DNA of 64,000 bases from Corallococcus sp. EGB (lineage in GTDB: Bacteria; Myxococcota; Myxococcia; Myxococcales; Myxococcaceae). The notes below the pieces were generated by a model. It saw only the letters and a list, made by a program, of their open reading frames with translations. It had not been told where the DNA came from and did not search any database. The stretch lies in NCBI RefSeq assembly GCF_019968905.1, contig NZ_CP079946.1, forward strand, positions 4,898,001-4,962,000. The letters run 5' to 3'. The position numbers and the translations under genes were made by a program. Of this stretch, positions 9,569 to 14,621 are shown piece after piece; the first letter of the stretch is position 1; every line of letters starts with the position of its first letter.

Positions 9569-9779
9569 CCGCGGGGGAGCGCGGGGCCTGCGTCGCGCGG
9601 GAACGCGGACGCTTGCGCCGGTGACGCGCGCGGGCGCTCCCGTGGCGGCCCCCCGGAGGGAAGACGGCTTGGCCGGAAAGTGGTCCACAACATGCAGTCC
9701 GGAGCGGACCGGGGGACTCCACCCCCTCTGAGTTCCACCCCATGACGGGCGCGGTGTGGCCCGCAAGGACTGCTTGTCC

Positions 9780-11312
9780 ATGAAGCGTTCTCGCCAATCC
9801 CTGCTGCTGTCAGGTGCGCTGGGCCTCACCGGCTGCCTGGCGTTGTCGCTGTCCGCCTGCAAGATGCCGGAGGCCGACGCGGCCGAAGCGAAGCCGGCCA
9901 AGAAGGCGCCCGCCCCCAACGTGGTGCCGGCCTCCGCCACCGCCCCGGACCCGGCCAACAGGGCCCGCACGCCGTTCGCCGCGGCGCGTGAGGCCTTGGC
10001 GCTCAGTTCCGTGAACGCGGATCCCTTCGCGGACAACAACGGCAAGCTTCCGCCGGCCTCGACGTGCCAGGGCCCCCTGTTCAGATTGAGCCACGACTAT
10101 CCGCAGACGCCCGTGGCGCCGCCCGCCAATCCGCCGTGGATCGCCGCGCTCAAGGGGCAGCCCATCTCCAAGGCCAACGCGCTCGCGTACGTCAACGCGC
10201 TGAAGGCCTACATCGCCCCGTCCATGCAGACGCTGCTCTATGACTACGCGCGGTGGGATGCGGCGAGCGCGGGCTGGTACAACGAGCCGTGGCTCGCCTC
10301 CATCCGCGAGAGCATCCACGGCACCTATGTGGGCTCCGAGTTCCCCGCGAGCACCTTCGCCGCGTCCGGCCTCAAGGTCGACATGACGACGTACGTGCTG
10401 ACCTACTACGACAAGGTCGCGGCGTACGCGCTGGGGCAGGTCTGGGGGACGACGGCCATGAACCCCACGCTCACCAACACGTCCGCGCAGTTCCCGGAAG
10501 GCTCCATCGTCATCAAGGTGGCGTTGACGAGCGCGCTGGCCAAGGACTGGCCGGTGATGGAAGGCGCGACGCTGTGGCCCATCTACGTGCCGCCGCCCAA
10601 CGGCCCCGCGCACGCGCCGCCGCAGGTGATGAACGCGTCGGTGATGCAGTTCGACATCATCGTCAAGGACACCAAGACGGCGCCCAAGACGGGCTGGGTG
10701 TTCTCCACGCTCGTCTACGACAAGCGCGTGCCCGGCAGTCCGTGGGACAAGATGATCCCCCTGGGCGCGATGTGGGGGGATGATCCGAACGTCAACTCCA
10801 CGCAGAACCCGGGCATGCCCCTGCAGGAGACGGTCATCAACCCCGCGGCGCCCGCGTACTCCACCGCGACGCTGGGGTGGGGTGGCCGGCTGTCCGGCCC
10901 GAACGACGGCGCGGTCGTGGCGCCGGCGTCCGTCAACGGGCAGATCCTCCCCGCCGTGCAGGCCTCGTCGTGCATGAGCTGCCACAGCGTGGCCGAGTGG
11001 CCCATGAAGACGTTCCTCCTGCCCACCACCACGATGCCGCCCACGGTCGTGGGGCCGAACAAGGACGCCCTCGTCCTCGAGCCGCCCGGCTCGCCGGCCT
11101 GGATGAAGTGGTTCCAGGACAACCCGGGCAACGTGCCGCTGGATCCCGGGACGGTGCCCATGGACTTCGACATGGTGTTCGCCTTCAAGTCGCTGCCCGC
11201 GTGGCAGGCCGCGACGCAGGGCAACAGCGGCATGAAGGACTTCGAGGCCGCCGACCTCCTCCGCGGCACGCCGCCCGTCAACCCGCGCGACCTCAAGTAC
11301 AACGGCCAGTAG
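9780..11312 (+). CDS. Lipoprotein with a single haem-c motif
   Basis: 510-residue predicted lipoprotein. A signal peptide beginning MKRSRQSLLLSGALGL ends at the lipobox LSAC, followed by a Pro/Ala-rich linker. One cytochrome-c type motif CMSCH lies at about residues 398-402 (SSCMSCHSVAEWP), so one haem c is plausible. The rest resembles no family I can name; it has repeated Trp/Tyr-rich strands and a large region suggestive of a periplasmic or surface electron-transfer or oxidoreductase partner. I chose the ATG at 9780 because it begins directly before the signal peptide. A flavoprotein-like gene starts 24 bp after it and both are probably one operon. Confidence 0.75.
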   Translation: MKRSRQSLLLSGALGLTGCLALSLSACKMPEADAAEAKPAKKAPAPNVVPASATAPDPANRARTPFAAAREALALSSVNADPFADNNGKLPPASTCQGPLFRLSHDYPQTPVAPPANPPWIAALKGQPISKANALAYVNALKAYIAPSMQTLLYDYARWDAASAGWYNEPWLASIRESIHGTYVGSEFPASTFAASGLKVDMTTYVLTYYDKVAAYALGQVWGTTAMNPTLTNTSAQFPEGSIVIKVALTSALAKDWPVMEGATLWPIYVPPPNGPAHAPPQVMNASVMQFDIIVKDTKTAPKTGWVFSTLVYDKRVPGSPWDKMIPLGAMWGDDPNVNSTQNPGMPLQETVINPAAPAYSTATLGWGGRLSGPNDGAVVAPASVNGQILPAVQASSCMSCHSVAEWPMKTFLLPTTTMPPTVVGPNKDALVLEPPGSPAWMKWFQDNPGNVPLDPGTVPMDFDMVFAFKSLPAWQAATQGNSGMKDFEAADLLRGTPPVNPRDLKYNGQ

Positions 11313-11335: not shown

Positions 11336-13261
11336 ATGCCCATCTTCGACAAGGCCATCATCGGCGCCGGTGGCGGTGCCATGTATTACCTCGATGCGCG
11401 CATGGGGTCCGACCTCACGTCGGGCATCCGGGAGCAGCTCACGAAGCAGTTCGAGAAGATAGCGAGCCTGGAGGCTCGCAAGAAGGCGCTGGAGCACCTG
11501 CTCTTCGTCGGCGACCGGGACACCGACAGGGCGAAGGCCCCGGAGGACGGGTCGCTCCTGGACCTCACGTCCAAGCGCGCCGTGTTCAAGAACACGGTGC
11601 TCATCGGCATGGTCAACCCGTGGCACATCAACAAGGGCGACCGGTACACGTCGCGCGGGGGCAACTACGTCGTCAATCACTCACGCCAGGTGATCAGCAC
11701 CCGGCCGCTCTCCTCGTTCCGAAACGATCAGTCCCGGGCCACGGTGAAGGCCGAGTGGCAGAAGGTCTTCCAGACGAGCGAGGACGTGGAAGGCCAGGAG
11801 ACGCTGTTCGCGCAGTCCCAGGGCTACACGACCCGCGAGAGCTTCAAGGACGAGTGGCTGGACATCATTGGCCGCGCGGAGAACCTGGGGCTGACCCGCC
11901 TCTGGGGAAACGTGACGAAGATCGAGTGGAAGGGGCAGGGGAACGAGGACGAAAAGCACTTCGAGATCACCTTCACCCCGGAGGTCTCCGAGACTACGCC
12001 CTCGCCCATCAAGGCCCGCGAGCTGCTGCTGATGACGGGCAACGGGAGCTACCTCAAGCCGACGGAGGCCAACGGCATCAAGGCCCCCGAGGACTGGGAG
12101 GACGACGATCGGATCATGGACATGGATCAGCTCATGCGCTTCCTCGCGACGACCGGAGAGAAGCGCAAGCGGATCTGCATCCAGGGTGGAAACGCGGCCA
12201 TCGACGCGGTCGAGCAGGCCATCCGGTACGGCCACGAGGTGCACTGGCTGGTGCGGTCCGGGGTGAACATCCTCGCCAACTCCCTGCTGGTGCACGCCCC
12301 CGGGCTCTCCGCCGAAAGCGCCAACGGGTCGTACCTGCGCGAGGGGGTGACGTCGAAGTTCAAGAAGGGCGTGAGCCTGGCGGAGATCGAAAGCAAGAGC
12401 GCCACGAAGCTCCACGTGAAGGCCTACTCACTGGCGGATGAGAAGACCGGCAAGGGAGAGAGCGAGGTCGTCACGAAGAAGAAGACGCTCGTCGCCGACA
12501 TCGACGACGTGGACTACTACGTCTACTGCATCGGCCAGGAGGTGAACGACAGCCCCTCGGGGGTGGCGAAGCTGCTGGTCAGCAGCAACCTCCTGACGCA
12601 GCTGGGCCGCGGCATCGACGAGGCCCAGCTGGAGCTCATCTACGACGAGGGCTGGCTCTTCCGGAGCCTGACGCACCGGAAGGACGCCGTGAAGGAGGCC
12701 GCCATCGGGCTGCGCAAGACGTTCTCGCAGAAATGCCGCATCGACGTGCTGGGGGCGGCTTCCTTCATGCTGGTCTCCCCCCAGGGAAAGCTCGGGAGCA
12801 AGCTGAAGCCGCTGACGAACTATCAGATCCAATCCGTCGCGGACGTGCGCCAGCTCGCGGCGCTCAAGGACGTGATGCGGGCGTACTGCAACACCCTGAG
12901 CGGCGCCTCGCTGGACCCTGCGAACGTCAACTTCCTGGGCGGCACCAAGAACGAGATCGCTGCCTTCATCGCCATGCACTACGAGTTCATTCCGCCCGTC
13001 GTCGCGGACGAGCTCACCTCCTTCCTCATGCGCGTGCGGACGCGGGAGGAGTTCACCAACGGCTACAGCGGGAGCGAGGTGACGGGCATCCAGGCCGCCT
13101 TGAAGAAGATCGACAAGTACTTCAAGGAACATGAGGACGTCCGGACGTTCCTCGAGAAGAAGATGACGCAGGTGGTGATGGACTACCGGAAGCTCATGCT
13201 CGCGCCCTTCCAGGTGGAGATCTCTACGTTGGGGTGGGCGGACATTCTCCGGGAGGACTGA
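11336..13261 (+). CDS. Large dinucleotide-binding (flavoprotein-like) oxidoreductase
   Basis: 641-residue protein. The N-terminal strand-loop-helix KAIIGAGGGAMYYLD is a Rossmann FAD-type motif with GAGGGA in place of GxGxxG. A second nucleotide-binding motif, RICIQGGNAAIDAVEQAI, lies at about residues 279-297 in the position NAD(P)H takes in flavin monooxygenase-like and thioredoxin-reductase-like enzymes. The last ~200 residues are helical and do not resemble a known domain. No signal peptide is present, so it is cytoplasmic. It follows the haem lipoprotein by 24 bp with GAGGA before the ATG. A redox function is likely; substrate and reaction are unknown, and the degenerate second motif leaves open a non-catalytic role. 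Confidence 0.65.
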   Translation: MPIFDKAIIGAGGGAMYYLDARMGSDLTSGIREQLTKQFEKIASLEARKKALEHLLFVGDRDTDRAKAPEDGSLLDLTSKRAVFKNTVLIGMVNPWHINKGDRYTSRGGNYVVNHSRQVISTRPLSSFRNDQSRATVKAEWQKVFQTSEDVEGQETLFAQSQGYTTRESFKDEWLDIIGRAENLGLTRLWGNVTKIEWKGQGNEDEKHFEITFTPEVSETTPSPIKARELLLMTGNGSYLKPTEANGIKAPEDWEDDDRIMDMDQLMRFLATTGEKRKRICIQGGNAAIDAVEQAIRYGHEVHWLVRSGVNILANSLLVHAPGLSAESANGSYLREGVTSKFKKGVSLAEIESKSATKLHVKAYSLADEKTGKGESEVVTKKKTLVADIDDVDYYVYCIGQEVNDSPSGVAKLLVSSNLLTQLGRGIDEAQLELIYDEGWLFRSLTHRKDAVKEAAIGLRKTFSQKCRIDVLGAASFMLVSPQGKLGSKLKPLTNYQIQSVADVRQLAALKDVMRAYCNTLSGASLDPANVNFLGGTKNEIAAFIAMHYEFIPPVVADELTSFLMRVRTREEFTNGYSGSEVTGIQAALKKIDKYFKEHEDVRTFLEKKMTQVVMDYRKLMLAPFQVEISTLGWADILRED

Positions 13262-13313: not shown

Positions 13314-14057
13314 ATGACTCCGAACGCTTCGCCTTCCCTGACCCTGCTGGAGCTGGCCGACCCGGGCCTGCCTGGCCTCGAGAGCTATTCTCCCTACTGC
13401 CTCAAGGTGCACCGGACCCTGAAGTACGCGGGGCTGCCGTACGCGCGCGTCTGCGCGGACAACCCGGCCTCACACCGCAAGCACAACCCCACCGGACAGG
13501 TGCCGGTGTTGCTGGTGGGGGAGGAGGCGGTGCCCGACTCCACGGCCATCCTCGCGCGCATCCAGCAGCTGGCGCCGGGCCGCATCGACGCGTCGCCGGA
13601 GGCGCTGCTCTGGGAGGAGCTGGCGGACACGGCCCTCAACGGCTTCCTCGTCGCGTCGCGCTGGGCGGATGACCGCAACTGGCCGCGGACGCGCGCCGCG
13701 TTCTTCCACTTCATGCCGGCGCCGGTGCGCGCGGTCGTGCCCACGCTCATCCGGCGCAAGCAGGTGGAGAGGCTGGTGGCGCGAGACGTCTGGCGCGCGG
13801 GGCCGGAGGCGTGCTGGCGCCGGTTCGGTGCGCTGTTGGATCAACTGGACGCCCGGGCGCCGGTGCACGGCTTCTGGTTGAACGGCGCGCTGAGCGTGGC
13901 GGACCTGGCCCTCTTCGGACAGCTGCACAGCCTGCGGACGCCGCTCACGCCCTGGCAGGGCGCGGAGGTGGAGCGGCGCGGGCGCTTGAGCGCGTGGCTC
14001 GGGCGGGTGGACGCGGCGACCCGCACCGCGAGCACGCCGCTGCGCGTCGCGAGCTGA
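13314..14057 (+). CDS. Glutathione S-transferase family protein
   Basis: 247-residue protein with the two-domain GST layout. The N-terminal thioredoxin-like domain has SPYCLKVHRTLKYAGLPY, where SPYC occupies the active-site Ser/Cys position, and GQVPVLLVGEEAVPDSTAI, holding the cis-proline and the DST glutathione-binding loop. The C-terminal helical domain ends with GALSVADLALFGQLHSL, the N-capping box region that many GSTs share. It probably acts in the cytoplasm in thiol conjugation or reduction; the substrate is not predictable. It stands between a flavoprotein-like gene and a PYP homologue with no clear operon partner. Confidence 0.85.
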   Translation: MTPNASPSLTLLELADPGLPGLESYSPYCLKVHRTLKYAGLPYARVCADNPASHRKHNPTGQVPVLLVGEEAVPDSTAILARIQQLAPGRIDASPEALLWEELADTALNGFLVASRWADDRNWPRTRAAFFHFMPAPVRAVVPTLIRRKQVERLVARDVWRAGPEACWRRFGALLDQLDARAPVHGFWLNGALSVADLALFGQLHSLRTPLTPWQGAEVERRGRLSAWLGRVDAATRTASTPLRVAS

Positions 14058-14174
14058 GCCGTTCCGTCCGAAAGCGGAGGGTTGGGGGGACGGGAACACA
14101 TGGCAGCCAACGCTCCACCGGTGGATACGGCCATCGCACGAACGTGCCGGTCGGGAGTTCTCTACCGTGTCCGC

Positions 14175-14621
14175 ATGAAGCCGACCCCGAACACTCCCCC
14201 CACTGGCGAACCGTTCCCCCTTCAAGCGTCCTCGGAGGAGTCGCTCGATGCGCTCATCCAGCGCGTGGATGGCATGTCGGAGGTGGAGCTGGACCATCTG
14301 CCGTTGGGGATGATCCAGCTCGACGGGCAGGGGCGGATCCTCAAATTCAACAAGACCGAGGCCTCGCTGGCGCGCATCCAGGCGCGCGAGCAGATCGGCA
14401 AGAACTTCTTCTACGACGTGGCGCCGTGCACGCGCGTTCGGCAGTTCTATGGCCTGTTCCAGGAGGGCGTGCGGGCGAAGAAGCTCTACCAGACGTTCGG
14501 GTTCGTCTTCCGCTTCGCGCACGGCGCGCGCCACGTGGCCATCACGCTGTTCTACAGCGAGAAGACAAACTCGGTCTGGGTGCTGGTGTCCGACAAGAAG
14601 ATGCCCGGCGAGCAGGGCTGA
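14175..14621 (+). CDS. Photoactive yellow protein (PYP)-like PAS protein
   Basis: 148-residue soluble protein whose residues 42 onward align without gaps to photoactive yellow protein, the p-coumaric-acid blue-light PAS sensor. Shared stretches include MIQLDGQGRIL, QIGKNFFYDVAPCT and QFYGLFQEGV. Cys85 in DVAPC matches the chromophore-binding Cys69, and Glu62 matches Glu46. Phe58 replaces Tyr42, Ala66 replaces Thr50 and Ile68 replaces Arg52 of the Halorhodospira protein. So the attachment residue is present but part of the phenolate hydrogen-bond network is altered. The start at 14175 leaves a PYP-like N-terminus; an in-frame ATG at 14100 is an alternative. No tyrosine ammonia-lyase or coumarate ligase is nearby. 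A strong hairpin follows. Confidence 0.85.
   Translation: MKPTPNTPPTGEPFPLQASSEESLDALIQRVDGMSEVELDHLPLGMIQLDGQGRILKFNKTEASLARIQAREQIGKNFFYDVAPCTRVRQFYGLFQEGVRAKKLYQTFGFVFRFAHGARHVAITLFYSEKTNSVWVLVSDKKMPGEQG

Follow-up and report, generated by a model that had tools for sequence, protein, structure and literature searches.

A photoactive yellow protein homologue of Corallococcus sp. EGB carries a pocket signature specific to a myxobacterial clade

Results

The window analysed in this study is a stretch of 64,000 nucleotides of the Corallococcus sp. EGB genome (assembly GCF_019968905.1, contig NZ_CP079946.1, positions 4,898,001 to 4,962,000), and the coordinates given below refer to it. The open reading frame at 14175..14621 of the + strand, starting with the ATG at 14175 and ending with the TGA at 14621, encodes a single-domain protein of the photoactive yellow protein (PYP) family. 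The protein consists of 148 amino acids and has a disordered N-terminus and an ordered PAS core at approximately residues 20–142. The GC content at the third codon position (GC3) of this frame is 0.92, and its dN/dS ratio against the same-genus orthologues, which are 77–94% identical, is 0.14–0.25. From these values, we conclude that pyp is a real gene evolving under purifying selection within the genus.

The gene located upstream of pyp (13314..14057, + strand) codes for a glutathione-S-transferase (GST)-like protein and is a conserved neighbour within the genus only. Further upstream, on the same strand, lie the genes of a 518-residue protein having a haem-c-type motif CMSCH (9756–11312) and of a 641-residue protein for which nothing more than a weak NAD(P)-binding match was obtained (11336–13261); this pair precedes the GST gene and pyp in several Corallococcus genomes. 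In Corallococcus, pyp is accompanied by this haem-motif protein, the NAD(P)-binding protein and the GST; in other genera, its neighbours are a GDPD phosphodiesterase, a nucleoside kinase and a thioesterase. As the neighbour sets are genus-specific and different between genera, the neighbourhood was rejected as a clue to the output of the protein. No signalling gene was found next to pyp at the locus.

In another genome of the genus (G017, locus L122), the GST gene is kept and pyp is missing. The alignment of this locus ends at window position 14061 and restarts at 14617, and the absent segment (14062–14616) is almost exactly gene-sized. Since the GST gene is kept there without pyp and the two are neighbours in this genus only, there is no evidence of their functional linkage. 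No match to pyp was found in 5 of the 16 same-genus genomes, G017 being one of them, which indicates that the gene is dispensable.

An inverted repeat close to CCAACGWTCAAACGTTGG is conserved approximately 60–70 bp upstream of pyp at seven Corallococcus loci (L003, L004, L005, L026, L029, L032 and L035). It is nearly unique in the genomes scanned and is degraded in the window, at 14107–14124. The repeat is possibly a binding site of a regulator. Its use as a regulon marker was rejected because hardly any copies occur away from pyp and the window copy has decayed.

The earlier note on this DNA described the protein as a PYP homologue that aligns without gaps over more than 80 residues. The comparison with the PYP of Halorhodospira halophila extended this alignment to 105 gapless residues, 42 of which are identical (40%, E 2e-27), and the homology is backed by the sequence, profile and fold comparisons alike. 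The NCBIfam model photo_yellow (TIGR02373) matches the protein at 8.7e-28 with 96.9 bits, below its curated cut-off of 143.05 bits. This miss is uninformative for the wider family, since the model is reported to recover only about 20% of PYPs (PMC9664959). The phmmer search of the PDB yielded, at the threshold used, exclusively PYP, Ppr and FAST chains, of which the Ppr-PYP 1mzu was the best (E 2.3e-20) and 1f9i, the Y42F mutant of H. halophila PYP, the second best. The generic Pfam PAS model matches the protein as well. Judged by sequence, the likeness to PYP is far beyond chance.

An AlphaFold2 model of the protein was built from 44 natural homologues (mean pLDDT 80.7, approximately 90 in the core). 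When it was compared with known structures, the VIA-align Z scores of PYP entries were 15.4–18.8 and that of the best non-PYP PAS domain was 11.8; the exception among the PYP-derived chains was the weak apo tag 8ao1 (nanoFAST), with a Z of 11.7. In Foldseek, nearly all PYPs matched the model with E values of 3e-12 to 7e-9 and other PAS domains with 1e-6 or worse. The predicted fold is therefore separable from those of other PAS domains. Among the Foldseek matches were crystal entries whose titles name the substitutions Y42F (1f9i), T50V (1f98), R52Q (2d02) and M100H (8dzu, in the F96oCNF background), which shows that no substitution of these kinds, taken singly, forbids a PYP structure.

The residues of the window protein were then mapped to H. 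halophila PYP, the numbering of which is lower by 16. The mapping agrees with the earlier note that the thioester attachment site Cys69 (Cys85; codon at 14427..14429, + strand, as for all codons below) and the proton donor Glu46, which forms a hydrogen bond with the phenolate (Glu62; 14358..14360), are retained. Likewise, it confirmed the replacement of Tyr42 by Phe (Phe58; 14346..14348), Thr50 by Ala (Ala66; 14370..14372) and Arg52 by Ile (Ile68; 14376..14378). Three more substitutions were found, namely Phe110 for Tyr94, Phe114 for Tyr98 and His116 for Met100 (14520..14522), the last being invariant within the clade described below. All six remaining residues of the published pocket (Ile31, Phe62, Val66, Ala67, Pro68 and Phe96 in PYP numbering) are present.

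Membership in the PYP family is defined by homology and Cys69 (Xing 2022, PMC9664959), and the latter is present as C85. Glu46, kept in 97% of the family, is present as E62, and F58 is the minority state of a position occupied by Tyr (91%) or Phe (9%). Phe42 is a known natural variant, reported at about 9% (PMC9664959, PMC12826048; 8.9% in the latter). According to Dohmen 2025 (PMC12826048), the consensus of 984 PYPs is Ala at position 50 and Leu at the variable position 52. Thus, the altered pocket claimed earlier is real in its three substitutions but was overstated at positions 50 and 52: relative to the family sequences, T50A and R52I are ordinary, and Y42F represents a recognised, less common state of its position. 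Meanwhile, the strongest departures were not singled out in the earlier note. These are the invariant His100 and the joint presence of Phe42 and Ala50, which, as read from the alignment, removes both hydroxyls known to form hydrogen bonds with the chromophore.

In the Y42F mutant of H. halophila PYP, the hydrogen bond is reported to move to Thr50 (PMC9664959). Its absorption is given as 458 nm (PMC9062252, citing Brudler et al. 2000), and an equilibrium of species at ~446 and ~400 nm is described for it (PMC12826048). The latter source also reports Ala50 PYPs with working photocycles, those of T. tepidum and L. biflexa being red-shifted (457–465 nm).

For the distribution of these features, genomes of the family and the phylum were searched. 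The photo_yellow model matched at 1e-10 in 33 of the 96 Myxococcaceae genomes, and its curated cut-off was exceeded in none of the 96. With a profile of the window's own clade, members (more than 200 bits; the next best scores were at most 145 bits) were found in 25 of 195 phylum genomes, all of them Myxococcaceae. Glu46, Cys69, Ala50, Ile52 and His100 are kept in 25/25 members and Phe42 in 24, the exception being the homologue L012 of genome G049, which has Tyr42; Ala50 accompanies Phe42 in every Phe42 member. Ile31, Phe62, Val66 and Phe96 are also kept clade-wide, and Cys69 and Glu46 are invariant across the 44 aligned Myxococcaceae homologues. The clade members group in the maximum-likelihood tree, in which several inner nodes are modestly supported, and the window PYP was mostly inherited vertically within Myxococcaceae. 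In other Myxococcota homologues, position 100 is occupied by Trp, Phe, Met, Gln, Lys, Ala or Asp, so this position largely sorts by clade. Phe42 occurs outside the clade in L111 and in the pair L036/L040, in agreement with the report of Y42F arising on several branches.

Two further groups of homologues were noticed. One is a second PYP-type paralogue clade of Myxococcaceae (L016, L019, L024, L036, L040, L052, L067 and L068) with Trp100, Arg52 and conserved Cys69 and Glu46; most of these genes have as neighbours a pair encoding an ABC-transporter ATPase (FtsE-like) and an FtsX-like protein, together with genes for lipid desaturase-like and MotA/TolQ-like proteins. The other, a third homologue clade with Phe100, Leu52 and mostly Tyr94, is spread over several families of the phylum (L018, L042, L045, L048, L072, L073, L074, L115, L116 and L119).

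Neither a tyrosine ammonia-lyase (TAL) nor a p-coumarate:CoA ligase (pCL) was found among the annotated neighbours of pyp at the window locus and in the orthologue neighbourhoods inspected, and an operon with chromophore genes at the window locus was rejected on this ground. Such a lack is normal, since in the published surveys only about 5–10% of pyp neighbourhoods contain TAL (about 5% of pyp operons in PMC12826048) and about 30% contain pCL.

The source genome encodes two aromatic lyases. One of them, L001, is a clear histidine ammonia-lyase scoring above the HutH cut-off. The other, at G000:C1:6996466-6997866 (G000 being the source genome), lies 2.08 Mb from pyp in an aryl-polyene-type cluster (L079). 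This cluster also encodes a fusion of an ApeI-like dehydratase with an AMP-binding domain, as well as acyltransferases, a ketosynthase, a thioesterase and an MMPL exporter. This second lyase scores nearly equally with the tyrosine (TAL) and histidine (HAL) lyase models. In what we take to be the selectivity motif, it has Y-H, as opposed to the H-L of the R. sphaeroides-type TAL. The second aromatic lyases of two genomes with PYP homologues (L132 of G001 and L133 of G014) have the H-L motif. The best NCBIfam match of the AMP-binding enzyme is the 4-coumarate-CoA ligase model TIGR02372 (2e-27, far below the cut-off). Aryl-polyene clusters may make p-coumarate from tyrosine. As this role was unconfirmed in the literature searched, the status of a proven TAL was rejected for the lyase, which remains a lead; by its gene content, the L079 cluster is a candidate source of activated hydroxycinnamate. 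A genome search for TAL and pCL had been proposed in the earlier note, with the absence of chromophore-synthesis genes as the outcome that would speak against its reading. That outcome did not occur, as the genome holds a candidate lyase and a ligase-related enzyme, both with putative substrates.

The aryl-polyene route is not general for the clade, because genera g7 and g8 have the clade PYP without a TIGR02372-type match and the genomes G049 and G056, both drafts, show only one aromatic lyase each, belonging to the top-scoring HutH-like class. A second aromatic lyase is found in 23/25 genomes with the clade PYP versus 40/71 without it (Fisher p 0.001), and outside the genus in 12/14 versus 35/66 (p 0.035), both comparisons being confounded by shared ancestry. 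For this reason, and because several types occur among the second lyases, the co-occurrence was rejected as proof.

Discussion

The family to which the window protein belongs is already known: its presence in Myxococcota, single-domain architecture, Cys69, Phe42 subclass and Ala50 have all been reported (PMC9664959, PMC12826048). An origin of PYP in Myxococcota was proposed in the former survey; in the latter, Myxococcota make up 9.7% of 984 PYPs and contribute none of the characterised PYPs listed there. The main texts of both contain no description that we found of the Phe42/Ala50/Ile52/His100 combination or of its restriction to Myxococcaceae. It is this clade-specific pocket signature that appears to be new. 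With H. halophila PYP (P16113; PDB 1nwz, 2phy), the protein shares the single PAS domain, Cys69, Glu46, Phe62, Val66, Ala67, Pro68, Phe96 and Ile31, but it differs in Y42F, T50A, R52I, Y94F, Y98F and M100H, in an N-terminal extension of about 16 residues and in having no linked TAL/pCL. The PYP domain of R. centenum Ppr (1mzu) also has Phe at positions 94 and 98, whereas it carries Tyr42, Ser50, Arg52 and Met100 and is fused to a phytochrome and a kinase. Finally, the mutant 1f9i likewise combines Phe42 with Glu46 and Cys69 but keeps the Thr50 that takes over the hydrogen bond (PMC9664959), where the window protein has Ala.

From the observed gene, fold, Cys/Glu conservation and clade pocket signature, we consider it likely that the protein is a PYP that binds p-coumarate and responds to light, irrespective of its colour, and that it probably acts as a soluble blue/violet light sensor. 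Several observations speak against this reading: no TAL or pCL was found beside pyp in the neighbourhoods inspected, no signalling gene adjoins it at the window locus, the second lyase has Y-H in place of H-L and fits the HAL and TAL models about equally, G049 and G056 show a single aromatic lyase each, the score is below the TIGR02373 cut-off (of a model that recovers few PYPs) and the gene is dispensable. Regarding the chromophore identity, photocycle and output, we infer the following. A p-coumaroyl thioester would sit on Cys85, where, from the Tyr42/Glu46/Thr50 trio, Glu62 alone could still form a hydrogen bond with the phenolate. Light would isomerise the chromophore, Glu62 would give up its proton and the altered domain would change its contact with a putative partner protein. 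His116 may tune the chromophore pKa or the recovery. By analogy with the H. halophila mutants, one would expect an anionic form red-shifted from 446 nm and/or an equilibrium between it and a protonated form absorbing in the violet/near-UV. Both spectral tuning and light sensing are plausible properties of this protein.

As Glu62 alone would be left to stabilise the phenolate, the chromophore of a functional PYP of this kind could be mostly protonated in the dark, making it a violet/near-UV instead of a 446 nm sensor. This special case is a possibility, albeit a rather unlikely one. The constant pairing of Phe42 with Ala50 in the clade points towards it, as does the reliance of the two-species Y42F mutant on a Thr50 that is absent here; against it, T. 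tepidum and L. biflexa have Ala50 PYPs whose absorption is red-shifted, and His116 might provide a compensating interaction.

A PYP-fold PAS domain that has ceased to bind p-coumarate, with Cys85, Glu62 and His116 serving another ligand or thiol/redox or acyl-thioester sensing, seems unlikely to us. It would account for the lost side chains of Tyr42, Thr50, Arg52, Tyr94, Tyr98 and Met100, the new invariant His, the lack of linked chromophore genes in the neighbourhoods inspected and the presence of just one aromatic lyase in G049 and G056, and a switch to redox sensing has been proposed for methylobacterial Ppr-PYPs (PMC9664959). Those proteins, however, lost Cys69, whereas here Cys69 and Glu46, which are central to p-coumaric acid chemistry, are invariant, the four clade-wide pocket residues are kept and Ala50 is the PYP consensus. 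An ordinary non-photoactive PAS domain resembling PYP through chance or decay could explain the score below the TIGR02373 cut-off and the generic Pfam match, but it is extremely improbable in view of the gapless 40% identity, the Z scores of 15–19 with PYPs against at most 11.8 with other PAS domains, the invariant Cys and Glu and the dN/dS of about 0.2.

Returning to the light-responsive PYP, we put forward, quite speculatively, a more specific form of it: the clade would represent a naturally occurring PYP that keeps Glu46 alone from the Tyr42/Glu46/Thr50 hydrogen-bonding set, accompanied by an invariant His100 in place of Met. Such a receptor would respond to violet/near-UV light or in two bands, and its recovery would be altered. 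In Corallococcus, its chromophore would come from the aryl-polyene pigment pathway and not from a dedicated TAL/pCL pair.

Natural Phe42/Ala50 PYPs probe the purpose of the textbook PYP hydrogen-bond network without engineered mutants, and the spectrum of the clade would tell whether an old myxobacterial lineage senses the same light.
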